Source: Chitinophagales bacterium (GTDB taxonomy: Bacteria > Bacteroidota > Bacteroidia > Chitinophagales > UBA2359). From it: a stretch of DNA of 51,075 nt. Under the pieces are notes generated by a model. The model was not told where the DNA came from. It was given only the letters and a program-made list of their open reading frames with translations, and did not search any database. The position numbers and the translations under genes are program-made. The stretch is taken from assembly GCA_020629005.1 (NCBI GenBank), contig JAHDEE010000017.1, positions 1 through 51,075 of the forward strand, written 5' to 3'. Shown here in pieces: positions 16,062-51,075 of the stretch (positions within the stretch are counted from its first letter, which is position 1; each line of letters begins with the position of its first letter).

Positions 16062-19000
16062 TCAACGAATCAAAGTCAAATTACCCTGCTGAAACTTATC
16101 TTCACCATCCACAGTCTTAATCCAGGCCATATAAACATATACACCTACAGGTTGCATTTCACCTTTATAAGAACCATCCCAGCCTTTACCCGGTGCTGTT
16201 GTCTGATAAAGCAGCATACCCCAACGATCGTAGATCATCAGCTCCAGTGACTCGATTCCATTACCCAAAACTCTGAAAACATCATTGATATTATCTCCGT
16301 TTGGAGAGAAGGCATTGGCAATATTAACAAATGGCTGCACAGGCACCTGAATGATCAGCGTCTGACTAAATGTCTCCTCACAAAGCCCATCAGAAATATA
16401 AAACACCTCGTAGACACCTGCAAGAGAATTATTGAGATCTATATCCCCAGAGACGGAATCCAGCACCAAGCCCGCTGTTGAACTGTAGCTGCCACCCAAA
16501 TCCGGAAGGATTTGCACAGAGGGATCTGTGTCCTGACCCTGGATATAGCTCAATTGACCATAATCGAAGCTGATCGGAATTGCATTTTCTCCATAAATCA
16601 AGGAGACAGCTGAACTACTAAAACTAGGACAAGCCTCATTGCCAACATAAACCGCATAGTACTCACCAGCCTCCAGGGGCACAAATTCGCTGCCCGTAGC
16701 AACTTGCTCATCCGCTTCATCATACCACCTGATCTCCAGGCCTTCCATGTCAGCTGTGGTAAAGGGAACCACATTCAAACTATCGCAACTAATGATCGAA
16801 GAGGGGCCAATTTCCGGAGCATCTGGACGATCGCAAGGGCAGCTGATAACGTACTCTCCTACCAGCATGCAGGCTGGCGAAGAACCTTCAATGGCTATCT
16901 GAACACTCATGGCTATGTCGTCATCCCCTATGCTCATATCGGCTGGTAGATCGGCTTCACCGATAAAAGTCATCCCATCATCAAAGGAGTACTGGATATC
17001 CAGTTGCCCCTGAGAACAGGAGTCAACTATCCCGAACACACATTCAGGAGCGCTCAGGCCAAACCACTCCGCTCTCGGTAAAGGATACAGCTCCACAACC
17101 AGCCCACCAGCATCCAGAGCTACCGTCGGATCGGCCTCGCATTGAACCTCCACACTAAAATTAAAGTATTCCGGTTCACAGCTTTGACCACTATGCTCGA
17201 ATACCTGGTTGCTATCCTCCAGCAAATTACCATCACCATCATACCAGACAAAGCTAGTAGCATCCGGTAAGTCAGTCACTATTTGCGCAGCAAGAAAGTT
17301 CAAGTCGAGACCTGCACTATCACAGATATTGATCACGGGATCCAACAATCCATTGATGACCATTTGTGGGCAGACTTGTTCGCAATCCCAGTTCAAGGCA
17401 ATGTCTAGCTGCTCCGGACAGTTAGGGTCATTATTGCTCAGTACAAAGTCCAGTGGCCCGCTGCTGCCCTCACTGGCCTCAAACACGAATCCACTGCCAT
17501 CCGAAACTTCCGTGCTCCAGGTGGCCTCAAAATTAGGACAGTCCTGACTTAGACTTATGTTGCATCCATTATCACTTACTGTATAGCTTAAAGATTTAAG
17601 TTGATCCACAGATAAGCTGCCAGAACCCAAACTCGAACCATCAGCATTGCAGAAAAGCTCATAGTCAAAGTCCAGGGTGGACACACAATCTGTTGGAGGC
17701 TCCGGTGTATAACTGATCTCAAAAAAGCTAGCAGAGCCCCCATCGGGCATTGTCCACAAAATGCTTGCATCAGTCGTATCTGAAAGCAGTGCTATCAAGG
17801 CCAGCGATTCCCCTTCGCAAATGACTGAGGCGTCAGCAAAAACATCAACCACCGTTGGGCAATTAGCCAGACAGCTGTAGGCCTGTTCTGCAAAACCAAG
17901 CTCACAGCCAGCTGGAGCTCCCACCGCCTGCACTGCAATTGCCAAATTTCCGCTAGCTCCCGGTTCAGGACTGTAATCGCCCATACCTGTATTGCCCTCA
18001 TTATCGATCCACTCAAAACCAAACTCCGCACAATCACTTTCAATGCTCACTAAACAGTTCGTTGAATTTATCGTCAAAACAGGTTCTGTTGGATAGACCG
18101 TTACCGGCACCCATCCAGCAGCCAGTAGACTTCCATCAACCGAGCAAAATATTTCATACTGCATGGAAAAATCATCCGGACAGATGCCCGAGATACCCAC
18201 GATAGCAGAAGTGCTAAAGCCACTGCTGCTTGTGCCATCAGGCGCCAGCCAGTTGACTTCAGCCAAAGATTCATCAGAAACAGCAACACTAAAGCTGGCT
18301 GTCTCTCCTTCACAAAACACACTGGCATCGCTCACTGCTTCGATAAAGATCGGACAATCAGGCTGACAGTCATAACTAGCCGCAAAAGTCTGCATCAAGC
18401 AAGCATTAGGAGCAGCAGGAATTCCTGCATTGGATGCCGTAAAATCCACTGTACCAGACTGTTCCAGGTCAGCCGTAAAGCTGGCCCCGGCTCCACTTTC
18501 CGCACCTGCTTGCCAGCTCACTTCATATTCCGGACAATCTCCAAGAAACAAGGCTGTACATTCACCGTTTACAACCACTCCAGTAATCTCAGGATAAACC
18601 GGCACTTCAAAACTCTGCGAAGCCAATTCACTTCCATCTGCCAAACAAGTCACTGTGCAAGATATCGAGATCGTCTCGGCACATCCACTGGCACTGCTGT
18701 ATTCATTGGTCCAACCATACGTATCTAACGTTGTTCCATCCGGCATACTCCAACTCACTGTAGCCAATGACTCATCCGAAACATTCGCAAAGCCAGACAA
18801 GCTACTACCACTACAAATCGATTCTGCATCAAGCTCAATAGCATATACAATAGGACAATCCAAAGCACATTCATAATCCACTGTTATCACTTCCGTATTA
18901 CAAGCGCCTGGAGCCACATTACTTACGACAGTAAAATCGACTTGTCCAACTTCTCCGCCTACAAAAGTCGCTGAAAACCCGCTCCCTGCTGTGCTGCCGT

Positions 19001-22227: not shown

Positions 22228-25200
22228 TTACCGAATCAAGGTAACATTACCCCGATGTACTCTGCTGCTGCCATCCGGCAAGATAACCTGAGCCACATAA
22301 ACATACACGCCCAAGGCCGCAGCTTCTCCTTTGTAGGTTCCATCCCATCCAAGCTGCAGGTCGCCACTGGAAAATAGTAGCTTGCCCCAACGGTCGAATA
22401 GTAGCCACTCCCCTACACTGCCATCATTGCTGATCACACGAAAGACGTCATTTACGCCATCCCCATTTGGAGAAAATGCATTTGGAGTTGCTACAAAAGG
22501 ATGTTCGACATAAACGGTGACCGATTCAGAATCAGTACAACCTGCTGCGTTGCTGACCTGCACGATATACTGCGTAGTCTGTTCCGGCTTTGCTATCGGA
22601 TTGGGACAATCCGAACAATCAAGAGACTCAAAGGGAGTCCATTGATACACCAGCGGCAGTTCGCTTACTACTTCGGTGCTTAGCTCAATAGATTCGCCAA
22701 CAAATAGCTCGAGATCTTCAGTCAGTGATACACTGGGTCCAGTGACCTCGATCAACAAAGATTCTTCGGCACTGCAGCCCGAGGATTGCAGCTCCAATCT
22801 GATCTCATAGATTCCGGTCTCTTCATAGCTGATTTTGGTCCCCTGCAAATCCGAACTCGAACCATCCTGTATCGTTGCTCCTTCAAAACTCCATTGTGCA
22901 ACCGCATCAAAAGCGGCACTGCTTGTGGCATCAAGACTAACAATCTCACCTGCACAAGCTGTCTCCTGTACAAATAGTTCGATTGTTGGTTTGGCCATCA
23001 CCATTATCGTCTGTTCTAGGCTTTGGGGGCAATCATTGCCAACGGTATAGGTAACCGTATAGGTGGCTGCTGGTTCCACCTGAGAAAGATCTATCTCACC
23101 ACTGATGGCATCGATTACTCCACCATTATCAATACTAAAGTCGCCTCCAATTTCGCCGGCTATCGCTGGAACAATTACACCCTCATCATTGCAGTAGCTG
23201 TCGCTTGCAAAAGCGAAAGTAGGATTCGACAATGGCCATTCAGCAAGTTCAATGGCTGTGGCTGTGAGAGAGGGACAGCCATCTGCAGCAGCGTAGGCAC
23301 TTACGAAGTAAGTACCTGCGTTTTCCGCTTGAAAAGCAGGACCAATAGCGAGGGTATCACTAGCATCCGGCTGGCTGGACCAAATCAATACATCTCCATT
23401 ATCTTCCACCGTCAATTCGGGAATGGGATCACCAGCACAAAAATCCTGACTGATTCCAACCGGAGGGGCAGCAGGCACACAGGGAGGACAATTGAGCGAT
23501 ACTTGCACCTCAAGCATAGCACAACTTTGAGCTGGATCAGCAGAAGTGATTTCGAAGTTTACAGTTGCAGTTTCGTCCTGTGCTACCGCAACCTGATTGC
23601 CAGTTCCGGTTTCACTGGTTGGACCATCGCCAACTAGTTCATAGCTGAAAAGATAATCGCAATCGCTGTGTAATATGGCCTCGCATGCTGTGCTTTGATC
23701 TTCTACAAAGAGTTCGGGGTACACCATCACCTCATGACTAACACCCAGGTTGATAAAACTCATCGGACTATTTTCCAGTCCATCGTCATCACAGAGAATC
23801 ATTGCGTGCAGCATGACGCTGGCTGCCGTGCATTGATCACCTGAGAGGGGATATTCAATCATATCACCCAGGTTGTACTCTTCTGCAGGGCTAGCCGGAT
23901 CGCTGATATCTCGAAACCATTTGATCTGCTGCCCATTGTCATCAAGCAAATTGATGCTGGGCAAGCTTGGTATGCCGCTGAGACAAAAGGACTCTTCGGT
24001 TGAATCATCGGAGCTGGAAGGACAGGCTTGCAAAGGACAATCAAGCACATATTCGTATACCACATCATTGCAGGCTTCAGGCCTGTTATTATCTCCATCG
24101 TTGATGGTGAAACTTAGCAAGACTGATTCTCCAGGGAGGGCAGTGTAGCTGTTTCCTGTCTGTGCTTCTCCATCTATACTTAGAACAATCTCGTAGCTGT
24201 TACACTCAGCCTGTAAATTTACACTGCACTGTGCCTGATCTTCTTCAGCGCTTATTTCAGCAAATATTCTAAGTGTGTGCTGCAGTTGCAAATCTACCCA
24301 GTCGAGACTGCCGCTGCCCTCACCAGAACAGCGGGTGAAAGCATGTAAAACCTTGTTGTTCACAGAGCAAACATCGCCGGTATGTGGAACTGCCGAGTTC
24401 CAGTCAAATTGGTCCTGAGGGTTTGAAGGATCGTCTACATTCTCGAACCAAAGCACAGGCTCCCCATTATCGTTTTCCAATACAACCGGAACGGCTGTTG
24501 GTATTTGTCCTGCGCAAAGCAATTGCTCTGACGGATCGTCGAAAGTAACAGGACAGGGAGGTGGCGGACAATTTATCGCCGCTGTAGTGCTTGCCGTATT
24601 ACAATCATCCGGGCGATTGGAATCAGTGTCCGTAATGGTGAAGACTACCGTACCTGATTCACCAGGATTGAGGGAAGCGTAGGTTCCGGCACCACTGCTA
24701 TTCTCCGTTCCAGCCGAACCCTCTATCTCGTAGCTTACCGTGTATCCACAAGTCTCAATGAGCTCTGCTACACATTCCTCCGCAGACATCATTACGGTTT
24801 CAATCTCAGGATAGACAGATACGTTTATCGACCCTGCGGGAATGAGGCTATCGTCCGCGGAGCCGTCAAAACCATCCCCTTCAAAATCACAAGCCAGAGA
24901 TACAAACACTTCAGTGCTCTCGACTACACAATTCGCATCTGCAGTGATACTTCCCACTGCAAAGGGAATTTGTCCTTGCGCATCAAGACTATAGAAAACA
25001 GTCACCTGACTGTCACCCACTGGAGCAGTATAGCTGAGGCCAATGGTAGTCTCGCTGAGATCTGTTTCATCCTGCTGGCAAAAATATTGACTCCCGCTTG
25101 CAGGGCTTTCCACTTCCGGGCAGCCACCGTTCGCAGGACAGTCGAAAACTTCGGTCAGAGAAAGGCCAACACAGCCTTCCGGCGCATCTGGCGAAAGGAT

Positions 25201-26769
25201 TTTCCAATCGACCCAGCCACTAGTGCCGGGATCCGCCAGATAAGAGAAGCCGGTTCCGATAGCTCCTTCAGCATCTACCCAAGTTGCTGTATACTCAGGA
25301 CAGTCTTGACTGATGGCGACGCTGCATGCATTTTCTAAAAGCTGAGCTGAGACTTCGGGAAATACTGTTAAGTCCAGGCTACCAGCAGCAATTTGCAGCT
25401 GATTGTCGGCACATATGATCGCATAACTAATCTCTAATGCTTCTTTGCAGTTGCCCACTATGTTAACTTCATAAGGAAGGTCAAACTGATCATAGCTATC
25501 TCCATTGGGCATTGTCCAGATAATTTCTGCATTGTCGTAGCTGGTCATTTCTGCAATCAATTGTATTTCTGTTCCATTGCAGACTTTGGTGTCAGAAAGG
25601 TACGCATCAATTAGACTTGGACAGTTTTCCGTACAATTATAGGTCCCGCTGTATTCTCCCACATAACAATCCAGCAGTATGGGAGCTTCTGAGTTTTCAA
25701 TCGAGTTTTCTACGACTCCTGTCATGCCCTCTTCACCAATATATTCGAAACTAAAACCTATGTTGCCTTGCTCGTCCTGCCAGTAGGAAGTAAACTCCGG
25801 GCAATCCTGGCTAAAGATCACCGTACAGTCTATCATTTCAACCGTGCTGCTGATCATGGGATAGACTGAAACCGGAATATTTCCAAATTCCAGAATTTCG
25901 CCGGATTCCGCGCAGAAAATATCATAATGGATCACCTCGTAGTCGCTACAAGCCTCCGTGGTAATTTCCCGAGTGAAGCTGAACTCCGTGGATATGACTT
26001 CTGGCTCATTGTAGATTGACCACTCGATGTACGAAGCAGCATAAGGATCTCCGTCAGCCATACTCATTTCTGCATTGAAAGTAACCAGGTCTCCTGTACA
26101 GACTTCTGTTTCGTCTGCTCCTGCCCAAACTAAATCAGGACAGTTAAAACTGCAATCAAAGCTTGTGGCAAAGTATTCCACATCGCCGCATTCTCCTACC
26201 GTTCCTGGAGTACTCTGAGAAATCGCGAAAACGACCTCTCCCAATGTTCCTGGCTCTGCAGTGAAACTGTATCCTTCTCCAGATAAATCAAATGTTCCAT
26301 CTTCATTCAGATCGACCTCGTATGTTGCTATGAATTCGTCACAGATTTCCGAGATAGCAATCTCACAGTTAGTTGACTGAGAAATAGTGGCATGAACATC
26401 TGCAAAAACGGTTACGATTATGCTGCCACTTGCTATCTGACTTCCATCTACTGTACAGGTGATTTCATAACTATATTCCAAATCCTGCCGACATTTGGGA
26501 TCGGAAGTGACATTGACTGATTCGTTGATACTAAACGCAGTGCTGCCAGTGTCTAAACTTTCGCCATCCGGTCCGGTCCAGGCTATAGTTGCCAGGGAAT
26601 TATTGCTTAGGTCGACTTGTAGGTCGAAAGTTTCTCCATCACAGAGGACAGACTGCGAAGCATAGGCGTCAATAAATACAGGGCACTGCCCGGCAAGAGG
26701 TATTGCCAGCAGGCTCAGCAGCAGGCTTAGCCAGAAGGTGGCGAAGTATGATGGGGTATAGTTATTCAT
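22228..26769 (-). CDS. Giant 2: T9SS type B secreted cysteine-module protein
   Basis: 1513 aa from ATG 26769; a TTG at 26781 is unlikely. The signal peptide ends near LAIPLAGQ (about residue 28) and the first module follows at once, so this giant lacks the W-L-H-type N-terminal domain of the others. Modules open at C29, 210, 383, 550, 739 and 916; the later ones have longer inserts and IPE-type variations. A short Ig-like domain starts at C1097 (DFCAGDPIPELTV), then an Ig/PKD-like pair, and the type B sorting domain fills about 1420-1513 (FSPNGDGVNDVFRV, FDRWGKLLF, WDGTYKGE). Module spelling is closest to giants 1 and 4. Export by T9SS is expected from the tail; the function is unknown. No promoter match was found upstream. 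Confidence 0.87.
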   Translation of the reverse strand: MNNYTPSYFATFWLSLLLSLLAIPLAGQCPVFIDAYASQSVLCDGETFDLQVDLSNNSLATIAWTGPDGESLDTGSTAFSINESVNVTSDPKCRQDLEYSYEITCTVDGSQIASGSIIVTVFADVHATISQSTNCEIAISEICDEFIATYEVDLNEDGTFDLSGEGYSFTAEPGTLGEVVFAISQSTPGTVGECGDVEYFATSFDCSFNCPDLVWAGADETEVCTGDLVTFNAEMSMADGDPYAASYIEWSIYNEPEVISTEFSFTREITTEACSDYEVIHYDIFCAESGEILEFGNIPVSVYPMISSTVEMIDCTVIFSQDCPEFTSYWQDEQGNIGFSFEYIGEEGMTGVVENSIENSEAPILLDCYVGEYSGTYNCTENCPSLIDAYLSDTKVCNGTEIQLIAEMTSYDNAEIIWTMPNGDSYDQFDLPYEVNIVGNCKEALEISYAIICADNQLQIAAGSLDLTVFPEVSAQLLENACSVAISQDCPEYTATWVDAEGAIGTGFSYLADPGTSGWVDWKILSPDAPEGCVGLSLTEVFDCPANGGCPEVESPASGSQYFCQQDETDLSETTIGLSYTAPVGDSQVTVFYSLDAQGQIPFAVGSITADANCVVESTEVFVSLACDFEGDGFDGSADDSLIPAGSINVSVYPEIETVMMSAEECVAELIETCGYTVSYEIEGSAGTENSSGAGTYASLNPGESGTVVFTITDTDSNRPDDCNTASTTAAINCPPPPCPVTFDDPSEQLLCAGQIPTAVPVVLENDNGEPVLWFENVDDPSNPQDQFDWNSAVPHTGDVCSVNNKVLHAFTRCSGEGSGSLDWVDLQLQHTLRIFAEISAEEDQAQCSVNLQAECNSYEIVLSIDGEAQTGNSYTALPGESVLLSFTINDGDNNRPEACNDVVYEYVLDCPLQACPSSSDDSTEESFCLSGIPSLPSINLLDDNGQQIKWFRDISDPASPAEEYNLGDMIEYPLSGDQCTAASVMLHAMILCDDDGLENSPMSFINLGVSHEVMVYPELFVEDQSTACEAILHSDCDYLFSYELVGDGPTSETGTGNQVAVAQDETATVNFEITSADPAQSCAMLEVQVSLNCPPCVPAAPPVGISQDFCAGDPIPELTVEDNGDVLIWSSQPDASDTLAIGPAFQAENAGTYFVSAYAAADGCPSLTATAIELAEWPLSNPTFAFASDSYCNDEGVIVPAIAGEIGGDFSIDNGGVIDAISGEIDLSQVEPAATYTVTYTVGNDCPQSLEQTIMVMAKPTIELFVQETACAGEIVSLDATSSAAFDAVAQWSFEGATIQDGSSSDLQGTKISYEETGIYEIRLELQSSGCSAEESLLIEVTGPSVSLTEDLELFVGESIELSTEVVSELPLVYQWTPFESLDCSDCPNPIAKPEQTTQYIVQVSNAAGCTDSESVTVYVEHPFVATPNAFSPNGDGVNDVFRVISNDGSVGEWLLFDRWGKLLFSSGDLQLGWDGTYKGEAAALGVYVYVAQVILPDGSSRVHRGNVTLIR
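23482..26685 (-). repeat. Six tandem eight-Cys modules in giant 2
   Basis: Opening Cys-Pro codons lie at 26685, 26142, 25623, 25122, 24555 and 24024, and the following Ig-like domain opens at 23481. The spacings are 543, 519, 501, 567, 531 and 543 bp. They are longer and less regular than in giant 1, which suggests an older array. The third module (opening C383) keeps all eight cysteines. Confidence 0.8.
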
Positions 26770-27262: not shown

Positions 27263-27293
27263 GAAGGGGAAGGCCCAAATTTTATTCTGCTGA

Positions 27294-27395: not shown

Positions 27396-27411
27396 AGCTA
27401 TTCGCCAGGAT

Positions 27412-38065: not shown

Positions 38066-41000
38066 CTATCTAATAAGGGTCACATTGCCTTTGTAGGTGA
38101 TAGCTTCACCGTCATCAAAGACAATATTGGCATAATACACATAAACACCAATGGGCATTTCTTCACCTTGGTAGCTTCCATCCCAAGCTTCACCAATGGT
38201 ATTGGTAGACCACAAAGCCTTTCCCCATCGGTCAAACAAAAACACTTCAATACTGGTTGCTCTGTTCTGGATTACCCTAAACGAATCATTTACTGTATCT
38301 CCATTTGGCGAGAAGGCTGTCGGAATAACGATCAGCTTCTCAGGAGGTGTAGGAACACTGATCAGCTGAGTTGTTTCATCCGGACAAGCTCCCGAAGTGC
38401 TATAAGTAATTGTATAATTATTCCCAGCCACAGCTGAGGCAAAGTCAATTTCACCCGTCATTGGATCTATTGCCAGCCCGCCCGTAGCGGTAAACACTCC
38501 AGGGTCTCCGACAAAAGTCGGGATGGCATTTTGCGTAGGAAGCTCGAATACTGTCTGCTCATATGCAAAACTGGCATCATCGGCGTCTATCACAGTCAAG
38601 GATACTATAGCACTTTGCGGACCAGGACAATCGCTGTTGATATACGAAGAAGCAAAATAAGTTCCTGGCTCGATTGCAACAAAGCTATTGCCAGTAGCTA
38701 CTATGGTTTCAGGATCATCAGTATTGTACCATTCTACCGTAGCACCTGCGTCGGCTGTTGCCTCGAAAGCAGTTATGTTCACATCGCCTTCACAGATCTC
38801 GATACTTCCAGGACTGATAGTCGGAGGACCTGGCACTTCGCAGTCGCAACCCACCGTGTAATCACCCTCGAAAGCGCAAATAGCTGGTGCACCAGCAACG
38901 ATAATGCTGTAATTGACCGTCTGTTCTGCTGTTCCAGGTTCAAGAGCTGCAGGTGGAGTACTATCATATGTTTCTCCTTGATCAATGCTGTATTGAATGT
39001 CAAGAGCACCACCGCAATTATCCGTTATCTCGAAGTTACAGGCAGTGGCATTTGGTAGGTTGATCATGCTTCCGTTTGCCTGAGGATATACCGTAATGTC
39101 AAAGGTACCACCTGGAGCAGTTAGGGCAGCATCAGCTGCACATCCTACTTCAACTGTATAGCTCAGCACCTCAGGATCACAGCTGGTACCTGAATGTGTT
39201 GCAGTTACACTGAAGGCATCAGTTACCTCTGCACCGGTACCATCATACCAGGTCAAAACCATTGAGGCATCCAAATCCGTACTCACCTGACTGTTCACAG
39301 CAGTCAGATCCACTTGTTCTCCTTCACATACTTCCGCTGCACCGCTTGCTGTAGTATTAACTTGCGTCCAGCAGTCAGATGGGCAGTCAATGTTAACATC
39401 AAAATCCGCTACAGCGCAATCACCGGGAGCACCTATACTCTGTATGGTCAAATTCACAACTCCGACCTCGCCGACGTCTCCAGTATAAGTTGTACCAGCA
39501 CCTGTTCCAGGGCCAGTCCAGCTATAGTCAAAGGCAGCAGCACATGGATCAACCACCGTTGCAACACAACCGCTTTCATCAATCACAGCAGTTATCTCCG
39601 GATAGATATTGATATCAATGGAGCCAGTCGAAACCGGATCACCATTCACACAAGTGATGGTATAGCTGTAGGAAGCAATTTCCTGACAGCCTGAACCAGA
39701 AACCAAATTCGCAGTATAAGACCAGTCTGTCGATACTTCTTGTGCCTGATCATCAGTCCAGCTAATTGTTGCCTGTGTATCATCTGATACTGTCGCAGTC
39801 AGAATTACATCGCTCCCATCACAAACGCTGTCTGTATTTGGTCCGGCATCCACAAATGTGGGACATCCAGGATCACAGGCATAGCTCGTTTCGATCTCGA
39901 AGATTTCACAGCCCAGCCCCGCCCCATTATTTGCCAGTACAAAAGTTATGCTACCGGTCTCTCCTCCCGCAGCAGTATATTCCGTCCCTTCTCCACTGAA
40001 CGGTCCAGAAACGTCATCAACGCCGTCATAGGTAACAGTTATATCATCTGGGCAATCTACCGTCACCCCAGCCGTACAAGTACCAGTACCAATAGCTTCA
40101 CCTGAAGGAGTAGCAAATACAGTGATATCTACTGTTCCTGTGCTCACGGTACTTCCATCATCGGCACACAGAATCTCATATTCAACACTTACAACTTCGT
40201 TGCAACCGCTGCTGCTCACAATTGGCTCGGAGAAACTATAATCCGTACTACCTACCCCATTTGGAACTGTCCACTGAATTGTGCTCAAAGTCTCGTCGCT
40301 CACGGTTGCAGAGAAAGTGACAATATCACCCTCACAGATACTCAGCACATCTGCCGTAGCCGTATCAAAGGAAGGGCAGTTGTCACTGCAGTCATAAGTA
40401 GTTTCAATAGGACCAAAAGTATCACAGCCTGCCGGCGCACCTGGATTTGTAATGACAAAGCTCACAGTACCGTTCGTTCCAGGAACGGCGTTGTAGGCAA
40501 AGTCACTTCCGGATATAGCTCCTACATCCGAATCAGTGCCGGTATAAGAGACTGCAAAACCTGGACAATCCTGACTAACTGAAGCAGAACAGCCTCCGTT
40601 CTGAGGAGTCGCTGTAATCAGGCCAAATACATTGATGGTCACAGAACCGTTGGCTAGTTGATCTCCCGTTGCGTCGCAGATCACCTCATAGCTAATCACC
40701 TGCGTCTCATTACAAGCTGTAGTGGATATCATTGTTTCATCTATGATTTCTCCCAATTGCTGACCACCACCTGGCAAGGTCCAGGTAATAGTCGCCCCTG
40801 GGCCATCCAGCGTGATGGCTGCCTGATAGTTTTCTCCATCACAAAGATCCGCATCTGCAGCAGTATTATCCGTGACTGTTGGACAAGCTGCATCACACAG
40901 GTAACTGGATGGAATGTCTACGGTTTCACAGCCAGCCGGAGCACCTGTATTTGTGAGGGTAAATGTAATGGTTCCAGACTCACCAGCACCAGCCGTATAA

Positions 41001-44000
41001 TCCAGACCATCGCCACTGAAAGGACCGGATTCATCATCTACACCTTGATAGCTCAGGGTCACATCATCCGGACAATCCGGCTCCACTCCTGCAGTACAAG
41101 TGTCGGTTCCGATTGCTGTTCCCGAAGGCGCAGCAAACACTGTAACATCCACAGTTCCTGTACTAACAATCGATCCGTCATCTGTACAGCTAATGGTATA
41201 TGCCACGCTCACCACTTCATTACAGCCACTATTACTAAATATAGCTTCAGAGAAAGTATAATCTGTGCTTCCTGTACCATTTGGCACCGTCCATTCAATG
41301 GTTCCGAGTGCTTCATCAGAAACTAGTGCCGAGAAGCTGACGAGGTCTCCGTCACAAATACTCTGTACATCTGCACTGACGGAATCAAAAGCAGGACAGT
41401 TGTCGCTGCATTGGTAACTGGTCTGAAAAGGGCCTAAAGATTCACAAGTTGGTGGGGCACCTGGATTTATGATTATAAAGTCTACAGTTCCATCTGATCC
41501 AGGCTCTGCATTGTAAGCAAAACCATCGCCCGAAATTACGCCTAGCTCGGAATCTGTTCCGGTATAGCTTGCAGTAAATTCAGGACAATCCTGACTTACA
41601 GAGGCCGAACAGCCACCGTCTTGAGGTGTGGCAGTGACAGTCACAAAGATATTGAAGCTCAAAGAGCCTGCACCAATGATGTCTCCGGTGGCTGTACATA
41701 TTACTTCATAAGTGATAATCTGAGGTTCCAGGCAGCCCGAAGTCGAAGTCATTTCTTCGTCGATCTGCACACCCGTTACCGTATCACCATTAGGCAGTGT
41801 CCAGGTTATTGTTGCACCAGTCGGGTCATCTAACTCTACAATAGCAGAGTAAATATCTCCATCGCATAGAGGAAGATCGACATCTGTCGGTTCACTGATT
41901 ATCGTCGGGCATGCCGCATCACAGTCAAAAGGAGCTGAAAAGGTTTCACTAGCACATTCTATTGGTGCACCTGGATTGCTAAGCACCCATTCCACCGTTC
42001 CGGATTCACCTTGCCCAGCAGTAAAGCTGTCTCCAGTACCGGCCGGATTTGTTACAGAATCCGAGGTGTAAGTAGCCGTAAAGCTTCCACAACCAGGATT
42101 GAGGGTGGCAATACAACCACCTGCATCCGGATTAGCAGTAATCGGAGGATAGACATTGACATCTAATACTCCATTGGCAATTTCACTCCCGTCAGCGCTG
42201 CAGTTAACCACATATGCCACTGACATTATTTCATTACAACCTCCAACAGAAGCTGCTGGAATACTAAGGGTAAATCCGTTTTGAGTTCCTCCGCCAGCGG
42301 GCAGGGTCCAGATTACTTCCGCCAGGCTCTCATTGTCTACTGTAACCGTATAGGTCACTTCTGTACCTTCGCAGGCATCAACAATATCTGAGGAAGCATC
42401 AGTAAATTGTGGACAATCCTCTGCACAGGTAACCTCGTCGCTGATTGTGTTCATGATAGAACAGGCAACAGGCGCTCCAGGTAACACACATTCAAACTCC
42501 ACCGGTCCACTTGTTCCAGGTGATAAGCATACATTGGTGCCCGTTCCTGCAGTGCCATCCGGAGCAGTCCAGGTAACTTGAATATCCGGACAATCCACTG
42601 CCAAATCAACGCAACAGCCATTGACAACTGGAGTTGCTTCAGCTCCCATTTCATATACATTTATGATCACGTCACCAGCTGCTTGTTCAGAACCATCATC
42701 CAAACAGTTGATTACGTAAGAATATACAACCGTCTCAGAGCAGCCACTCACACTGACCGGATTAACATTTAGGACAAACTGGTCATCAACAGGGCCATCA
42801 GGAGTAGTCCAGCTAATCTCTGCTAGAGATTCATCACTTACATCCGCGGTAATTGTGACAGGCTCTCCAGAACAAACATCAGTCAGATCAGCTGAAACAT
42901 TGTTTACTATCGCACAATCAGCAGTGCAATTAAATTCCGCTACAAACACAGCACTTGAACATTCAGCAGGTGCTCCAGGATTGTCGACAGTCCAGGTTAC
43001 AGTACCATTAGTACCGGTTGCGGCATTAAATATTTCCCCAGCCCCACTGGTATTTTCACTGGCATCAGCTTCTGTTGAATCCCAGGCAATCGTAAAGTCC
43101 TGTGGACAGTTGGAGGTAATCGAAGCATTACAGCTGCCATTATTTTCTACAGCAGTAATTTGCGCATACACATTGATTACAATCGACCCACTGGCTATCT
43201 CAGTCCCATCTGCTGTACAGGTTATTACGTAATCCGCTGTTGCTATCCCATTGCAGCCGTCAGCAGTCGTCACTGCCTCAGTCACGGTAAACTCGGTTGA
43301 GTTTACAGCTCCTGACCATGCGATCGCTGCACCTGTCGGATCATCCAGAACTGCACTGAAGGTCACTGCGGTGCCGTCGCAAACATCGGTCAAATCTGCC
43401 GATGCAGAATCAAAGACCGGACAAGGGGCTGCACAATTGTAGAGCCCCTGAAAGGTCTCCAGAGCACAATCATTAGGCACTCCTGTAGCCACTACCGTAA
43501 ATACTACCGGCTCTTCCACTGCAACAGGCCCAATGGCCATTTCTGAGCCTGAAACGCTACCAGTAGAGGGAGCTTCATAAGAGATTTCATAACCACATTC
43601 ATTGCTGATACTGGTACTGCATTCCGTTTCGGTGATTTCAGCTACAATGTCACCGTAGATCGTAACATCTATTGTTCCACTTGTCACTAAGGAACCATCA
43701 TCCAGGCATATTAGCTCATATGACAGTGTCAGGATTTCCTGGCACTGGTTAGTGTTGAGGGTAACAGTTTGTGTATATCCGGTTTGCGGTCCAGTTGGAA
43801 AAATCCAGTTCACTTCCCCAAGTTCTGGGTTGGCAGCCTCGAGCGTGACTGTGACGTCTGAACCGTTACAAACCATCGTAGCATCCGCATCCGCCGAAAC
43901 AAATACCGGACAATTGTCTGCGCAGGCAAATTCTGTACTGATATTCAAAGACTCGCATGAAGCCGGTGCGCCAGGCATCGTGATAGTCCAATCCACTGTT

Positions 44001-47000
44001 CCAGACTCGGTTGGCAAGGCTGTGAAGCTATTGCCTACTACTGGCTCTGCTGAGCCATTGGCTACACCTGTAATCAAATACTCCGGACAATTCTGACTAA
44101 GGGAGGTCGTACAACCACCCGGTGTCTCCGTTGCCATAATACCAGGATATACTGTAACCGTCAGGAAGCCAGATTGAACTGGAGAGGAATCTCCTGAACA
44201 CAAAATGGTATACTCATAAGTTTTCAGTTCCGGACATCCTGTATCAGATACTGGTGTGTCCGTCAAATCCCAGTTGGTATCTGTTCCACCACCAGGCAAA
44301 GTCCAGGTAATTTCTCCCAGTGAAAGATCATCCACTGCTGCAGACAAATCCACTGATTCTCCTTCGCAAATGGCATCAAGACTGATGCTTGCATCTACAA
44401 AAGTTGGACAAGGTGCCTCGCAATCATAGACAGCACTGAAAGTCGCACTATCACAGCCTGGCAATGCACCTGGATTTACTACCGTAAACGTTACTGATCC
44501 ATTGGTATTTTCGGCTGCTGAATAAGTAAATCCTACACCGTCTCCATCATCGCTGGAATAGGTTGCCGTAAATTCAGGACAGTCCTGCGTTACGGAGGCT
44601 CCACAACCGCCGTCACTGGTTGTTCCGGTTACCGCTACATACACATCAACGGTGATGGTTCCTGATTCCAACACTTCAGAGGTAGCATTGCAGATCACAC
44701 TGTAGTCAAAATCATGGGGTTCATTACATCCCGACAGACTGGTTAATGTTGGGTTCAAAGTGAATCCAGTATCTGGACCTGAAGGAGTCACCCATTCAAC
44801 AGTTGCCAGCGCATTATTACTTACATATACATCAAGCTGGACTGTACCACCATCACATACTGCATCAAGATCAGAACCAGAACCATCGACAGTTGGACAA
44901 TCAGGTGGACAGTTGAACTGCGATGAAAACTCTGCCGTGCCGCAGGTGGCCGGTGCATCAGGACTGGTCACCGTCCAGGTAACTGTTCCTTGTGTGTTTT
45001 GGAGGGCTATATAGTCCGTACCAGTTCCAGTTCCACCAAGACCATCATCATAGCTGACGGTATAGTCTGGACAGTCAACAGTAAGCGAAGCCTCACAGAT
45101 GCCGTCCAGCGGCGTCGCGGTGATTTCTGGATAATAAGTGCTTGATAAAGTTCCGGCTCCAATTTGTTCTCCGCTATCATCACAGGTAACTACATATTCA
45201 AAAGTCAGCAATACCGGACAAGGGTCAGCTGCCAGATGGTTATAGGAAATGGCAAAGTCAGAAGATGCGGCGCCATCCGGCAAAAGCCAGCTAATCGTCG
45301 CTGGGTCTGTTCCATTCAAGCCAACTTCTATGTCTATAATTTCTCCTTCGCAAACATTCGCCAATGGATCAGGATCTATCACTTGAGGACAGGCGGCCTG
45401 ACAATCATACTCAGCTTCGAAGGTATCACTGGCACAGCTAGCTGGTGCTCCAGGATTGCTCACAGTGAATGTAACTGTGCCGGCAGTGTTTGTAGCGGCA
45501 TTGTATACCGCAGCATCTCCATTATCTCCGTCAGTTGAAGAAAAGGAAACTTCAAAAGTCGGACAATCAATCGTGATGCTGGCAGCACATTCGCCATCGG
45601 TAGGTGTTCCACTGATAAGAGGATACACATCTACCACTATATCCCCTTCATCCATGATCTCGTTTGTATCCAAACAAGTAAGGACATAACTATAGGTTGC
45701 AGTTTCATTGCAGCTCGATGTGGTTACATTTTCTGTAAGCACTAAATCATTAGATGTTCCTCCTCCCGGAAGTGTCCAAACTACTTCAACTAGGTCAGCA
45801 TCAGCAGCAGCAATTCCAACTGTCATCGTAACATCCGTACCGTCACAAACTTCTGCTTCATCCGCTGTTGTTCCCGAATAGTCCGGACAGTTTGCTTCGC
45901 AATCGCGAGTTCCTGTGGCATTCTGGGGAGGACAAATATCGTCCGAGTCATCTACCTCAAAATCGAAGGTATCTCCACTCGTAAAGCCGCCTTCTGTATA
46001 GGTATCTCCGGTGATGTCTGCTCCATCCACAGTATAAGGAGGATTCCCTCCGCTAATTTCCAAGGTCACTTCATATTGTAGATTTCCTGTGCATTCTGTT
46101 CCAAATGTCACTGTAAGTTCTTCCACAAACAGGTAGACTGGACCTGCTCCATCTGCTATTCCGCATCCTCCAAGCAGTGAATCATAGCAGTCTCCGTCAG
46201 TCGTAACATCATAGATCCAGTTGAATTGGTACAAACCATATGTTTCTACGGTTGCATCTGCATTTTGCGTAAACTCATCAGGGGTGAACGTAACCGTCGG
46301 ATCAACCATGCCAGTTGCCAGGTTAACTGCTTGCCATCTGTAGTTGTCAATGCTTATTGTGCAATCAGGAACTGCGAGATCATCAGACACTTGCTCCAGG
46401 AAAGTAGGATCTGCAGCGCAGCCCAGCTCAGGTGTAGAACAGACAGCATTGCTGGCCCCATTTGCAGTAAGGGAAACTGTTGGACCACATACGTCTATTT
46501 GAAGTGGATCACAAACAATTGCATCGTCAAACTCTCCGCCAAAAGCAACAAGGAAAACGATATTACAGTCAGGACCCTGTGACCAGGTAAACTCATAAAT
46601 ACCGCAAGCATCTACAGTTACATCAGTATTCGGATCAGTGTCATCAACGAAAGTTGCAGTGGCTGGATCTGCAGTCCATGTACCAGTGCCGGGATTCAAT
46701 ATTTCCAAAGTTTCCGTCATTCCACAAATCGCTCTGTTTTCGGGAATATCGGTAGGGCAATCAGCCTCACAATCATAAGTCAGACCTACAATACCTTGCG
46801 CACATTCATCAGGAACATCACCGTCTGGATTTGGGTAAGACAAAGTCCAGGTGACCTGACCATTTGTACCTGGCGCTGCGACATAGACAATATCATCTGC
46901 GGTATCGTCCGGATCATCAAATCCACCGTCTGTATCTTCCCAGCTAATTTCATAACTGTCCAGGCAATCACTTTCCAAGGTAATTGTACAAGCATCAGGA

Positions 47001-50000
47001 TCTTCCACAGTCGTCACCTCAGGCCCGATTTGCAAATAGAGCCAATAGCTGATTGCATAATTTAGGGATACTAACTGTATGTCGTCAGTGGTAGCAGGAT
47101 CACCATCCAGGTCACAAGGATAATAAGCGTGTACGGTATAGTCAAGTGGCGCACAGCCATCTCCTCCTGCGGCTGTATACTCAATAAGATCACCCTGAAA
47201 TATCGGTTCTGTAGGCACAACGGGATCATCAATATTTGCGTACCATTCTACGAGGAATGAGTTACCTCCGTCGGTTAGAGTCAGATCTGGAAAGTCGACC
47301 TGCACTTCATCACAGTGGTGTTCTACAATCGGTGTGTCAGAAGTAGTTGGACAGGGTGGACAATCCAAATCGAAAGTCTCGCTGTAGCTGTTGCAGGTAA
47401 GCGGTATGTTCTCATATTGGCTTACGATATCAATTGTCACTGACACCTGCGAATCCGGTTGGGCGAGATAGCTAAAGTCACCCACATCACCTACATTTGC
47501 ATTTTCATCTACCCAGGCACCTGTAAATAAGGTTTCATCACATTGGGCATCGATGACAAACTGGGCAACACAGCCAGTCTGAATCACCTCAATCCCATCT
47601 GTTACAGGAGGATACACCGTTGCAGTGTGGATAAAGGCCAATTCCACCCAAATATCATCGGTAGCTGGGTCTTCATCATCATCGCAAAGGATGAACGGGT
47701 AGTATTCGTATAAGGTCGGCTCGCATGGATGTGCATCGGGATCCAACTCGATTGGCGTGCCATCATACTCATTAACCAGGTTGTCAGGTGCACCCGGATT
47801 ATCGGGTACAGTAAACCACTGCACCGGATTTCCATTATCATTGATTATCGTCAGGGCTGGGAAATTTGGTGTCTCGCCTTCGCAGATAAAATCGTCTGCT
47901 GGTTGATCAACTGTTTCGGGGCAAGGAGCACATGCGAAATTTAGTGTGAAACCCACATCGTTGCAGCCAACCGGTCTATCGGTGTCTGTATCTGTAACCG
48001 TGAAATTCACTTCTCCGCTATCCCCATTTTCAACTCCAGTGAAACAGCTTTCTCCTGAGGCAGAAGCTCCGTCACTGGCAGTATCAACTGCATCTACAAC
48101 ATAGGCTAGGTTAAATCCACAATTACTAACAAGACAAGCTGTACAGGCTCCTTCTGTTACATCGATTTGATCTAATGTGATAGGAGGATAGATGATGAAT
48201 TCCACTGAAGCCATGAAGCTGTAATCGAAAGGATCAATATCACCGCTTGCATTTGGATCATCAATGAAATCATTTTGATCTGCATCGCATAGGATAAATG
48301 CATGAAGTAGAACGGTTACGGGAGCGCATCCATCGCCATCAGGAGGATAAGATAAAATATCTCCATCTGCGAAGTCGGAGCCGAAAACTGGAACAGCATC
48401 ATTGGGCTCCTGCTCTGCAAACCAATAAATCAAGGAAGTGCCTGCAAGTCCATCACCTTCTACGCCATCAAATCCAAAGTCTGGGTTTTGAATATCTCCC
48501 TGAACGAAAGACTCCGCGGCCGCAAGAGCAATACTTTCTCCATCACAAATGAATTCCTGATAGGTATCGCTACCGGTGTAAGTCGGGCAATTGCAATTGT
48601 TGACTAAGAATTCTACTGTGCTGGCAGGACTTGTACAGCCGTTTGCATCTGTTTGTGTGAGGTAAACGGTATATGGTACAGCCTCCTGCAATGAAGGGAA
48701 AGCAGCATTTACATCTAAGGTAGATCCAGAACCAACGGAGATACCGCCAAAGGCAGGATCACCGTCATACCATTCAATGTTCTGACCAGCGGCGACAAGC
48801 TCTATGGCTGGATCGTCTGAACAAGCGATAATTGGTTGAGCGACTGGTGGAAGCGGCAATGGATTTACAGTCAAAACTATGGGTATTGAAGAAGATGGAC
48901 CAGTACATTGATTGTCATCTTCGGCGGCAATATAAAGCACCAGTGCTCCGGACGCGTCAACCAAGTCAGGAGTCACATCAAAGGTCAGTCCCGAGTTCAG
49001 TTGATTCAGGAGCTCTGCATCCGAAAACCAAACAATATTTCCAACTCCACCAGCAAGCTCTGCCTCCAAAGTGATTGTTTCATTCAGGCAAGTCTCCCCA
49101 TCGGTAGGAATGGGCGGATCAGGAAAATCGTAATCGAGAGATATACTGGATACAGATGGAGCATCCGGAAAACAAGAAAAGTTTGGCGCACTATAAGCGC
49201 CAGTTTCTCCATCAGCATAAGTATCAACGGTTACCGAACAGTCAAGACTTTCACATCCGTCTTTTGTAGTCAATTCAAAGCAAACAAGCCAAGGCCCTAC
49301 TCCACTGTCTCCCCACGCATCTTGTGGGACAGTTGGATTAGATGAACCTGGAGAAGCCGCATAGAAAAACCAACCTGCCCCAGGCCCAAACTGCCCCTGC
49401 AAAGGGTTTCCAACAGGCTCTCCGACCGGTAGGTCAGGATTTCCCGAAAGATCGTAAGGGTCGTATATAACATTTTCCGACCATTGCCATCCGTCTGTCT
49501 CTCCCTGGCCGCAATCAAAATCGTCACCACAATTAGTGGCCGTTTCCAGCTGGGTCGTCACGGTAGGTTCTTGGCCGTATGGCGTAGTCCAGCACCCTCC
49601 CCAGGATGGCACTATACCATGTAACCAACTGAAGCTGCTTTGCGTCCAAAGTGGCAGTTCATAGCAAAACTCAACTGTAGTATTTGGTGGGTATGGTCCG
49701 TTTGTAGGCACACCTGCCGGAGCATTTACGGTTATAAATCCTGTAGTATTACATACCAATGAAGCTTCTGTTATGTCGATGCACAATTCGAACTCACCTA
49801 CTTCTTCGTTTGCATCGGTAACAGCGACATAATAAGTGGCATCCGGCTGCAGAAAGAGTGCATCAGTTTGACTTGCACCTCCATTTCCCGGCTGGTTTGA
49901 ACAAGGTGCCGTCAAATAAGTGGAGCAGTCATCTTGAACAAGGAGGTAGATATATGGGTCGTTCAAATCAGTACTATTTACAGATATTTGGCATTGCGCT

Positions 50001-51075
50001 GCATTGGAAGGCATTGTGAATTGAAAGAATGCCGTAGGCGCTAGTACTGGGTTTGGACAAAATACTGGATCTGGATTAAACAATGAAAAATCAGCTCCAT
50101 CGTTGCATGCAGTGATACAGGTATTGGCACCGGTTACAACAGCTATTGGATCAGATGTCGCAATCCCACATTCATCGCTGGTAGCACATGTCGGAAAATC
50201 TTGAGCAATGCAGAATTCAAAGTCGCCATTTTGACCGTCGTCAGTCATGATACCAACGAAGTATTGAACTCCGGCGTCAAGTCCAGTCATTTCTATGATA
50301 GATCCGGGCGATCCACAATACAAATCTTCTGGAATATTGGTCACCAGTTCCGAACAATCATTGGCTGGAATTGCAATCGCGAAAACATCTCCGCCAAAAC
50401 TGTTGCTTGATAGATCTATGAAGAGGTTTCCAAAACCTGAATCAAGTGTAGTGGTAAACCATACGTCATTGTAACTGCTAAATGTACAAGGCAGATCAAT
50501 AAAGGCTGATGTGGCGCTTATCGTCGAGCTGGACTCACAACTGTAGACACCAGCGGAGCTGTTTAGCGGGACATTGATTGGCAAACACTCGTCATTGTTT
50601 GGAACAGGGGGTTGCACGTATGGATTATTAACACAGAGGTCAAAAGCTGGAACAGATACATCAAATCTTGATGTAACCATGATATAGTAGTTCCCTAGAT
50701 TTTCCAAGACAGGTACATCAAGCACACAAGTAGCATTTCCGGTACAGCTAACACAGGCTATAACATCGGGAGAGGTTTCACTTAGATCTACAGCACTGCA
50801 ATCGGGACCCGGAAAAGATATTACAGCGATCTCTGCATAGTTGAGGTTCGATACTTCTATTGTTGCATCTACCCCTTGTGAAGTAAACTCGAACCATAGA
50901 TTGTTTTCCCCACCCATACACCAGGCAACTCCAAGATCATTTGATGCCCCAACTGTGGAAAAACTGGAGCATCCTCCGTTGAGGTCTGTAATGGTTGCTG
51001 CGTCTGCACAATCATCCTGGGCTTGAAGGAAAAAAGGAAGGGCAAGAGAGAATATCAAAACACCTAGTATTCTCA
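38066..51075 (-). CDS. Giant 4: 4336-aa T9SS type B cysteine-module protein (5' edge)
   Basis: The last two bases of the window (51074-51075) are the final two of an NTG start codon. The true start at 51076 gives [M]RILGVLIFSLALPFFLQAQ, a good signal peptide; the TTG at 51058 would remove most of it. So only one base of the gene is missing. Domains: three PPC-like beta domains (about 20-450), a W-L-H-type domain (about 450-640), Ig-like domains (about 640-825), eighteen cysteine modules opening between C830 and C3902 (the fourth, from C1440, irregular and longer), an Ig-like cap from C4079, and the type B sorting domain (about 4245-4336; FSPNGDTVNDSFRV, FDRWGKALW, WDGSYQGE). It should be exported by the T9SS as a very long, disulfide-rich fibre. 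Recent internal duplication is described separately. No enzyme motif is seen. Confidence 0.87.
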   Translation of the reverse strand, partial: RILGVLIFSLALPFFLQAQDDCADAATITDLNGGCSSFSTVGASNDLGVAWCMGGENNLWFEFTSQGVDATIEVSNLNYAEIAVISFPGPDCSAVDLSETSPDVIACVSCTGNATCVLDVPVLENLGNYYIMVTSRFDVSVPAFDLCVNNPYVQPPVPNNDECLPINVPLNSSAGVYSCESSSTISATSAFIDLPCTFSSYNDVWFTTTLDSGFGNLFIDLSSNSFGGDVFAIAIPANDCSELVTNIPEDLYCGSPGSIIEMTGLDAGVQYFVGIMTDDGQNGDFEFCIAQDFPTCATSDECGIATSDPIAVVTGANTCITACNDGADFSLFNPDPVFCPNPVLAPTAFFQFTMPSNAAQCQISVNSTDLNDPYIYLLVQDDCSTYLTAPCSNQPGNGGASQTDALFLQPDATYYVAVTDANEEVGEFELCIDITEASLVCNTTGFITVNAPAGVPTNGPYPPNTTVEFCYELPLWTQSSFSWLHGIVPSWGGCWTTPYGQEPTVTTQLETATNCGDDFDCGQGETDGWQWSENVIYDPYDLSGNPDLPVGEPVGNPLQGQFGPGAGWFFYAASPGSSNPTVPQDAWGDSGVGPWLVCFELTTKDGCESLDCSVTVDTYADGETGAYSAPNFSCFPDAPSVSSISLDYDFPDPPIPTDGETCLNETITLEAELAGGVGNIVWFSDAELLNQLNSGLTFDVTPDLVDASGALVLYIAAEDDNQCTGPSSSIPIVLTVNPLPLPPVAQPIIACSDDPAIELVAAGQNIEWYDGDPAFGGISVGSGSTLDVNAAFPSLQEAVPYTVYLTQTDANGCTSPASTVEFLVNNCNCPTYTGSDTYQEFICDGESIALAAAESFVQGDIQNPDFGFDGVEGDGLAGTSLIYWFAEQEPNDAVPVFGSDFADGDILSYPPDGDGCAPVTVLLHAFILCDADQNDFIDDPNASGDIDPFDYSFMASVEFIIYPPITLDQIDVTEGACTACLVSNCGFNLAYVVDAVDTASDGASASGESCFTGVENGDSGEVNFTVTDTDTDRPVGCNDVGFTLNFACAPCPETVDQPADDFICEGETPNFPALTIINDNGNPVQWFTVPDNPGAPDNLVNEYDGTPIELDPDAHPCEPTLYEYYPFILCDDDEDPATDDIWVELAFIHTATVYPPVTDGIEVIQTGCVAQFVIDAQCDETLFTGAWVDENANVGDVGDFSYLAQPDSQVSVTIDIVSQYENIPLTCNSYSETFDLDCPPCPTTSDTPIVEHHCDEVQVDFPDLTLTDGGNSFLVEWYANIDDPVVPTEPIFQGDLIEYTAAGGDGCAPLDYTVHAYYPCDLDGDPATTDDIQLVSLNYAISYWLYLQIGPEVTTVEDPDACTITLESDCLDSYEISWEDTDGGFDDPDDTADDIVYVAAPGTNGQVTWTLSYPNPDGDVPDECAQGIVGLTYDCEADCPTDIPENRAICGMTETLEILNPGTGTWTADPATATFVDDTDPNTDVTVDACGIYEFTWSQGPDCNIVFLVAFGGEFDDAIVCDPLQIDVCGPTVSLTANGASNAVCSTPELGCAADPTFLEQVSDDLAVPDCTISIDNYRWQAVNLATGMVDPTVTFTPDEFTQNADATVETYGLYQFNWIYDVTTDGDCYDSLLGGCGIADGAGPVYLFVEELTVTFGTECTGNLQYEVTLEISGGNPPYTVDGADITGDTYTEGGFTSGDTFDFEVDDSDDICPPQNATGTRDCEANCPDYSGTTADEAEVCDGTDVTMTVGIAAADADLVEVVWTLPGGGTSNDLVLTENVTTSSCNETATYSYVLTCLDTNEIMDEGDIVVDVYPLISGTPTDGECAASITIDCPTFEVSFSSTDGDNGDAAVYNAATNTAGTVTFTVSNPGAPASCASDTFEAEYDCQAACPQVIDPDPLANVCEGEIIDIEVGLNGTDPATISWLLPDGAASSDFAISYNHLAADPCPVLLTFEYVVTCDDSGEQIGAGTLSSTYYPEITATPLDGICEASLTVDCPDYTVSYDDGLGGTGTGTDYIALQNTQGTVTWTVTSPDAPATCGTAEFSSQFNCPPDCPTVDGSGSDLDAVCDGGTVQLDVYVSNNALATVEWVTPSGPDTGFTLNPTLTSLSGCNEPHDFDYSVICNATSEVLESGTITVDVYVAVTGTTSDGGCGASVTQDCPEFTATYSSDDGDGVGFTYSAAENTNGSVTFTVVNPGALPGCDSATFSAVYDCEAPCPTFVDASISLDAICEGESVDLSAAVDDLSLGEITWTLPGGGTDTNWDLTDTPVSDTGCPELKTYEYTILCSGDSSPVQSGFLTVTVYPGIMATETPGGCTTSLSQNCPEYLITGVANGSAEPVVGNSFTALPTESGTVDWTITMPGAPASCESLNISTEFACADNCPVFVSADADATMVCNGSDVTVTLEAANPELGEVNWIFPTGPQTGYTQTVTLNTNQCQEILTLSYELICLDDGSLVTSGTIDVTIYGDIVAEITETECSTSISNECGYEISYEAPSTGSVSGSEMAIGPVAVEEPVVFTVVATGVPNDCALETFQGLYNCAAPCPVFDSASADLTDVCDGTAVTFSAVLDDPTGAAIAWSGAVNSTEFTVTEAVTTADGCNGIATADYVITCTADGTEIASGSIVINVYAQITAVENNGSCNASITSNCPQDFTIAWDSTEADASENTSGAGEIFNAATGTNGTVTWTVDNPGAPAECSSAVFVAEFNCTADCAIVNNVSADLTDVCSGEPVTITADVSDESLAEISWTTPDGPVDDQFVLNVNPVSVSGCSETVVYSYVINCLDDGSEQAAGDVIINVYEMGAEATPVVNGCCVDLAVDCPDIQVTWTAPDGTAGTGTNVCLSPGTSGPVEFECVLPGAPVACSIMNTISDEVTCAEDCPQFTDASSDIVDACEGTEVTYTVTVDNESLAEVIWTLPAGGGTQNGFTLSIPAASVGGCNEIMSVAYVVNCSADGSEIANGVLDVNVYPPITANPDAGGCIATLNPGCGSFTATYTSDSVTNPAGTGDSFTAGQGESGTVEWVLSNPGAPIECASETFSAPFDCDAACPTIISEPTDVDLPLCDGDIYSAIVELDDPTGATITWTLPNGDTVTGVQIDEEMTSTSGCLEPQIITYEVICTATGDIIGAGSLSFNIFVTVTATPQDGGCSASVSQDCPEFTASYTGTDSELGVISGDGFAYNAEPGSDGTVDFIIINPGAPPTCESLGPFQTSYQCSDNCPAFDSVSADVQSICDGDLVSFSALVSDEALGTIEWTVPNGTGSTDYTFSEAIFSNSGCNEVVSVAYTISCTDDGSIVSTGTVDVTVFAAPSGTAIGTDTCTAGVEPDCPDDVTLSYQGVDDESGPFSGDGLDYTAGAGESGTITFTLTNTGAPAGCETVDIPSSYLCDAACPTVTDNTAADADLCDGENYQAAITLDGPGATITWTLPGGGQQLGEIIDETMISTTACNETQVISYEVICDATGDQLANGSVTINVFGLITATPQNGGCSASVSQDCPGFAVSYTGTDSDVGAISGSDFAYNAVPGTNGTVSFVITNPGAPAGCDTFGPIETTYDCSDNCPSFDTATADVLSICEGDIVTFSATVSDETLSTIQWTVPNGVGSTDYSFSEPIVSSSGCNEVVSVEYEILCADDGSTVSTGTVDITVFATPSGEAIGTGTCTAGVTVDCPDDITVTYDGVDDVSGPFSGEGTEYTAAGGETGSITFVLANNGAGLGCEIFEIETSYACDPGCPTFVDAGPNTDSVCDGSDVILTATVSDDTQATISWTDDQAQEVSTDWSYTANLVSGSGCQEIASYSYTITCVNGDPVSTGSIDINIYPEITAVIDESGCVATVVDPCAAAFDYSWTGPGTGAGTTYTGDVGEVGVVNLTIQSIGAPGDCAVADFDVNIDCPSDCWTQVNTTASGAAEVCEGEQVDLTAVNSQVSTDLDASMVLTWYDGTGAEVTDAFSVTATHSGTSCDPEVLSYTVEVGCAADAALTAPGGTFDITVYPQANGSMINLPNATACNFEITDNCGGALDIQYSIDQGETYDSTPPAALEPGTAEQTVNYSIIVAGAPAICAFEGDYTVGCDCEVPGPPTISPGSIEICEGDVNITAFEATADAGATVEWYNTDDPETIVATGNSFVAIEPGTYFASSYINSDCPGPQSAIVSLTVIDADDASFAYEQTVFELPTQNAIPTFVGDPGVFTATGGLAIDPMTGEIDFASAVAGNNYTITYSTSGACPDETTQLISVPTPPEKLIVIPTAFSPNGDTVNDSFRVIQNRATSIEVFLFDRWGKALWSTNTIGEAWDGSYQGEEMPIGVYVYYANIVFDDGEAITYKGNVTLIR
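38843..48589 (-). repeat. Eighteen tandem cysteine modules in giant 4
   Basis: Opening Cys codons: 48589, 47923, 47353, 46759, 45889, 45391, 44899, 44410, 43912, 43423, 42916, 42415, 41911, 41398, 40885, 40378, 39865 and 39373; the cap opens at 38842. The first four intervals are long (570-870 bp). From 45889 onward they settle at 489-513 bp, with a last interval of 531 bp. Modules in the regular part keep all eight cysteines; the irregular module from 46759 carries a different, probably PKD/Ig-like insert. Confidence 0.85.
39866..41911 (-). repeat. Two-module duplication (about 1.02 kb) in giant 4
   Basis: Modules opening at 41911 and 41398 are repeated as a pair at 40885 and 40378. The spans are 1026 and 1020 bp, ending at 39865. 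The protein pairs share long blocks, for example SICDGDLVSFSA and SICEGDIVTFSA, STGTVD(V/I)TVFA, GCSASVSQDCP and TGTDS. At DNA level the same codons are kept, for instance around 40563 and 41582 (GGACAATCCTGACT). This is a recent unit duplication. Confidence 0.8.

Follow-up and report, generated by a model that had tools for sequence, protein, structure and literature searches.

The four giant proteins encoded in the window (the 51,075-nucleotide contig, from a draft Bacteroidota assembly of 6.9 Mb in 456 contigs) are of a known kind, T9SS surface proteins with tandem Ig-like domains, but have two unusual traits: an invariant pattern of eight cysteines in a repeated module, and a near absence of basic residues. 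The module, a double Ig-like unit restricted to one lineage and probably locked by disulfides, is probably a building block of stalk adhesins displayed by the T9SS, a function deduced from its architecture, predicted fold and export signals.

The four open reading frames lie on the minus strand within 16062-51073 (Table 1). Their combined coding length of 33,678 bp agrees with the approximately 33.6 kb given by the first-pass annotation, but the coding is not contiguous as stated there: the intergenic gaps of 466, 630 and 238 bp make these four separate genes. The frame of giant 4 is open, as the end of the contig cuts its 5' end inside a signal-like segment, and its length is therefore a lower bound. 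The start codon of giant 3 is likely to be the ATG at 37728. An ORF between giants 2 and 3 (26884-27309) looks spurious by eye. In the spacer that separates giant 1 from giant 2 there is a match to the Flavo-1 RNA (RF01705; 21957-22100, minus strand; 42.5 bits, cut-off 42), and intergenic DNA at 6599-6788 is similar to this spacer. Palindromes are found between giants at 37919-38012 and 26782-27411, with a piece of approximately 31 bp common to two gaps. Elsewhere in the window, a Hen1 methyltransferase (PF12623) adjoins a Pnkp ligase (PF16542) in an RNA-repair pair (70-4021, plus strand), and a gene near the Lys/Arg-free giants (7655-10300, plus strand) encodes a product with the look, by eye, of a trypsin-fold endopeptidase and with a T9SS type A tail, the tail being its one Pfam match.

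Table 1. Positions of the four giant genes and their parts in the window.
Feature	Position	Strand	Content or basis
Giant 1 (P0001, 1899 aa, 199 kDa)	16062..21761	-	head-like N-terminal domain, Ig-like region, 6 modules, type B CTD
Giant 1 module array, 6 eight-Cys modules	16836..19853	-	alignment + module HMM
Giant 1 type B sorting domain CHU_C/TIGR04131	16065..16325	-	Pfam + NCBIfam
Giant 1 head-like domain homologue	21138-21716	-	shared WLHG motif
Giant 2 (P0002, 1517 aa, 162 kDa)	22228..26781	-	6 modules, Ig_7/PKD, type B CTD
Giant 2 module array, 6 eight-Cys modules	23482..26685	-	alignment + module HMM
Giant 2 type B sorting domain CHU_C/TIGR04131	22231..22488	-	Pfam + NCBIfam
Giant 3 (P0003, 3471 aa)	27412..37827	-	head-like domain, 8 Ig_7-type repeats, PKD/fn3, 9 modules of separate subfamily, type B CTD
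Giant 3 module array, 9 eight-Cys modules	28660..33228	-	alignment + module HMM
Giant 3 array of eight Ig_7-type repeats, ~78 aa each	35005..36879	-	Pfam-based
Giant 3 type B sorting domain CHU_C/TIGR04131	27415..27672	-	Pfam + NCBIfam
Giant 3 head-like N-terminal domain, WLHGVIP motif	37150..37659	-	homologues in giants 1 and 4
Giant 4 (P0004, >=4335 aa, >=450 kDa)	38066..51073	-	N-terminal ~150-aa repeats, head-like domain, 17 modules, Ig_7, type B CTD
Giant 4 main module array, 14 eight-Cys modules	38843..45889	-	alignment + module HMM
Giant 4 array interruption, 290 aa, 14 Cys (aa 1439-1728 of P0004)	45890..46759	-	not module by HMM
Giant 4 second group, 3 more eight-Cys modules	46760..48589	-	alignment + module HMM
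Giant 4 type B sorting domain CHU_C	38069..38329	-	Pfam
Giant 4 head-like domain homologue	49109-49762	-	shared WLHG motif

Delimitation by cysteine spacing, followed by alignment, yields 38 full modules of approximately 166 residues, distributed 6, 6, 9 and 17 among giants 1 to 4, with lengths of 163 to 222 residues that are mostly between 163 and 181. The earlier count of about 39 is one too many, as the supposed 39th copy is the cysteine-rich segment that interrupts the giant 4 array and draws no match from the module HMM. Every module has at least eight cysteines (exactly eight in 35 of the 38, and nine, ten and eleven in one each), and the claim that the four giants have one eight-cysteine module in common is borne out: the eight are kept in 38 of 38 copies, seven of their columns being invariant and the eighth (C7) lying a few residues out of line in a single copy. 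The copy with eleven, three more than the canonical eight, is module 11 of giant 4 (42416-42916, minus strand). The four giants contain 464 cysteines in total, of which 304 belong to the 38 x 8 set, close to the 300 first estimated. The two subfamilies proposed at that stage are also recovered: modules of giant 3 have a mean identity of 39% among themselves and 22-23% to those of the other giants, and modules of giants 1, 2 and 4 are 24-29% identical within and among these proteins. Two pairs in giant 4 are more alike (modules 13 and 15 at 60%, modules 14 and 16 at 69%), from which it follows that a two-module unit was duplicated. As Tandem Repeats Finder detects no tandem repeats in the DNA, the array represents a conserved protein architecture rather than recent slippage. 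The true N-terminal edge of the module is marked by module 1 of giant 2, which directly follows the hydrophobic leader (LLAIPLAGQ-CPVF).

The cysteine pattern persists beyond the window. Among 325 full-length matches in the family and a sister family, 189 have all eight cysteines in column and 62 more depart from this only by a displaced C4, which in one clade is shifted a few residues into the next loop, still at the pole of C1; the remaining departures are mostly truncated ends or tandems of Ig_7 type. As hardly any genuine module lacks one of the eight cysteines, co-loss of cysteine pairs is uninformative as independent evidence of pairing. One locus (L057, G017:C520) has module runs with a ninth cysteine approximately 8 residues past C1 (CPEIFNPACDPP...), possibly a free or inter-chain thiol.

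The module appears to be a lineage-restricted domain family that has no name; the first-pass annotation had not recognized it as a named domain either. In Pfam searches with the four giants and the 38 modules no model fits the module, the best scattered matches (DUF4785_2nd, PKD and Ig_3, with E values of 4e-4 to 8e-4) being unconvincing; an NCBIfam scan of giants 1-3 names only the sorting domain; profiles built from the 38 modules and from 89 diverse modules match no solved protein in the PDB by sequence, and the giants themselves likewise bring up no named domain for it there; and the literature searched contains no description of such a module or of giant adhesins free of Lys and Arg. A known domain close to it is Ig_7 (PF19081, an Ig-like domain associated with CHU_C), which is itself present in giants 2, 3 and 4. 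Only one of the 38 modules matches it, with an E value of 0.089 that falls short of the gathering cut-off. The Ig_7-type repeats and the first half of the module have a C-x-G...W stretch in common (hhalign probability 87% over 29 columns), but the second half is unrelated to Ig_7 by profile, and each half of the module has four cysteines, against two in an Ig_7-type repeat of giant 3. Tandem duplication as the origin of the two halves is not supported (hhalign 13%).

For two neighboring modules of giant 4, AlphaFold2 modeling on an alignment of 49 such pairs predicts with confidence (pLDDT 95.7, pTM 0.74) four Ig-like sandwiches, so that each module would consist of two two-sheet beta-sandwiches of approximately seven strands each. 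By the predicted positions of the strands, C1 shares a pole of the first sandwich with C4, and C2 lies with C3 at the opposite pole; in the second sandwich C6 is grouped by pole with C7, and C5 with C8. The pairing of the cysteines is read from predicted strand order rather than from coordinates: the nested bonds C1-C4, C2-C3, C5-C8 and C6-C7 would place one disulfide at each pole of each sandwich.

All four giants have a type B sorting domain at the C-terminus, as first reported, matching CHU_C (PF13585) with 49.6-60.2 bits against a cut-off of 27; an NCBIfam scan of giants 1-3 adds TIGR04131 (47-58 bits, cut-off 35). By eye, all four also have hydrophobic N-termini followed by AQ or GQ, that of giant 4 being cut at the contig end. 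The genome encodes SprA (SprA_N, E value of 1.4e-133), and these leaders and sorting domains, together with SprA, suggest that the giants are exported by Sec and then by the T9SS. There are 12 PorP/SprF matches in the genome, 11 of them above the cut-off, and none of the 12 is on the window contig; a cognate PorP/SprF gene adjoining its cargo is common, but not a strict requirement. By analogy with the type B cargo of P. gingivalis and F. johnsoniae, which is anchored by PorP/SprF homologues (PMC9143113), the giants may be anchored in the same way. The search for disulfide-forming enzymes that had been recommended returned one candidate, a VKOR-family protein (L062, G000:C425), but its fusion to a C39-peptidase-like region suggests that it may function in peptide export instead. 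Other cysteine-rich proteins of T9SS type are encoded in the genome, one of 4133 aa with 8.6% Cys (L090, G000:C403) and one of 2286 aa with 7.0% Cys (L088, G000:C336).

The module is found almost only in one bacterial family. In its own genome it was matched by 143 of 150 candidates scored, and the regions fetched contain at least 172 module matches, at least 140 of them full-length, in at least 23 proteins, so that this one genome contains well above a hundred pairs of Ig-like domains from the unnamed family. These proteins end in either type B or type A sorting domains, and the module is therefore not tied to one export class. It is present in 20 of 20 genomes examined of the family (UBA2359). 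An even sample of the phylum, 394 other genomes scored at a reduced depth, gave no match (E<=1e-8). Within the order, 25 of 249 genomes match at E<=1e-6, including 19 of the 20 of the family; the rest comprise two members of a single further family and four genomes from elsewhere, each of these four with one or two matches. A search with a closer alignment also found the module in two Chitinophagales/Bacteroidetes MAGs, and none was found in the viral contigs searched. In a sister species the locus is syntenic, with an FA_hydroxylase 80% identical, giant 1 56% identical and then further module giants. The paralogous cluster proposed by the first-pass annotation is real, but it is not a single special cluster, as its building block is used across the lineage; what that annotation observed is confirmed, and its interpretation is partly supported.

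The near-total absence of basic residues had been missed. The module arrays of the window, 6,846 residues including the 290-aa segment of giant 4, contain 8 Lys and 13 Arg, and in 307 modules from 15 genomes (52,201 aa) Lys accounts for 0.13% of residues, Arg for 0.20% and His for 0.33%, compared to 13% for acidic residues and 9% for Asn plus Gln. Lys plus Arg make up 7.7% of the sorting domain in 13 type B giants with modules, versus 0.23% of their other 34,927 residues. The other proteins of the window contain 6-14% (the cytosolic ones 10-14%), and large ORFs in random 20-kb samples from two other Bacteroidota contain 5-13%, which is only a partial control because there are no giants in these samples. 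By these comparisons, base composition and nitrogen saving do not explain the depletion. Other giants of the genome are also poor in basic residues, and the depletion is thus not specific to the module, but a trait of the giants of this genome that is most extreme in the modules. Candidate reasons for it are avoidance of trypsin-type proteases, easier passage through Sec or easier export, and surface charge.

Together these data suggest long, stiff surface fibers as the best reading of the giants. Each module would be a fusion of two Ig-like beta-sandwiches, with two disulfides probably locking each sandwich, and the giants would project as long, stiff, acidic stalks. A 180-nm fiber of 49 domains (PMC13319060) gives approximately 3.7 nm per domain, at which the 17 modules of giant 4, or 34 Ig domains, would extend approximately 125 nm. 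Heads at the N-termini of the stalks would attach to surfaces, prey or neighboring cells. Such adhesion is plausible for giants 1, 3 and 4, which have the WLHG-motif domain in common; giant 2 has no head domain, and its adhesion cannot rest on one. Modeling of the head-like domain is poor (pLDDT 54.5, with insignificant structural matches), and no ligand-binding domain was identified in the giants. With its disulfides and with Lys, Arg and His so scarce, the exposed part would withstand unfolding and attack by trypsin-like proteases.

The large number of module-bearing proteins and of full modules in one genome could also be accounted for if many paralogous, acidic, cross-linked chains made up a protective coat, sheath or matrix that has no specific ligand. 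Modules with 9 to 11 cysteines could cross-link such chains and the acidic, K/R-poor composition would suit them, but the head-like N-terminal domains on three of the four giants and the distinct architecture of each protein suggest individual roles, and a coat is unlikely. Quite unlikely, too, is a role as mobile gliding adhesins carried along the surface by the gliding motor in the manner of SprB, itself a giant cargo of the type B CTD class, bound to SprF (PMC9143113). The giants resemble SprB and other giant type B CTD adhesins in sorting class, size and extracellular repeats, and PorP/SprF homologues are encoded in the genome; but the giants differ in repeat sequence and cysteine content, have no Pfam match to the SprB repeat and no SprF neighbor on the contig, and some module proteins have type A tails and would be anchored differently.

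It is very unlikely that the giants join side by side as multi-chain, prey-capturing hooks in the manner of GhpA from Aureispira, a related predator. GhpA is a 5,898-residue chain that forms heptamers (PMC13319060) and is exported as a substrate of the T9SS (PMC11205867). GhpA of Aureispira sp. CCB-QB1 (PDB 9fls, 9flp, 9flu, 9flw and 9g8b), a giant T9SS-exported chain of tandem Ig-like domains in whose size class giant 4 falls, is the best structural match of the module: its cryo-EM fragments take the first five places in a Foldseek search of the PDB (best E value of 3.0e-12), followed by animal Ig-tandem adhesion proteins and fibronectin, and it ranks first by VIA-align (Z 9.8). This VIA score, however, is tied with those of unrelated Ig tandems, and no GhpA chain in the PDB is matched at E<=10 by two module profiles (A1 and A5) or by giant 4. 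With no detectable sequence similarity, any likeness to GhpA would be one of fold only, and of a predicted fold. A GhpA-like protein of Litorilinea has DUF11 domains (PMC13319060), which Pfam does not find in the four giants, and separate DUF11-repeat giants elsewhere in the genome (L084, G000:C3, 8322 aa; L085, C48, 8201 aa; L086, C180, 5288 aa; all as open frames) fit the role of a hook better. TssC/VipB of PF05943, of which the Bacteroidota versions may belong to other families, was not found. An artifact of assembly or annotation of repetitive sequence, conceivable in a 456-contig draft with the cluster at a contig end, is largely refuted by protein identities of at most 69% without tandem repeats in the DNA, by the long uninterrupted frames and by the syntenic locus in the sister species, and its probability is close to nil.

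Stalks built of disulfide-locked modules, the preferred reading, admit a further and tentative proposal, possible but short of probable, in which the giants are a class of protease-proof fibers peculiar to the family, with double-Ig modules almost entirely purged of Lys, Arg and His, so that only the sorting domain, close to the membrane, retains basic residues. Ig stalks locked by isopeptide bonds are known from Gram-positive pilins and adhesins. The giants would be like them in the covalent locking of tandem Ig-like domains, with its mechanical and protease stability, but the lock here would be disulfides, in Gram-negative T9SS cargo. If this proposal is true, these fibers would be a Gram-negative counterpart of the isopeptide-locked pilins, and the set of amino acids used in giant secreted proteins would be under strong selection. 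The module suggests that T9SS fibers may be locked by disulfides, and its composition raises the testable question of why giant secreted proteins lose nearly all of their basic residues.
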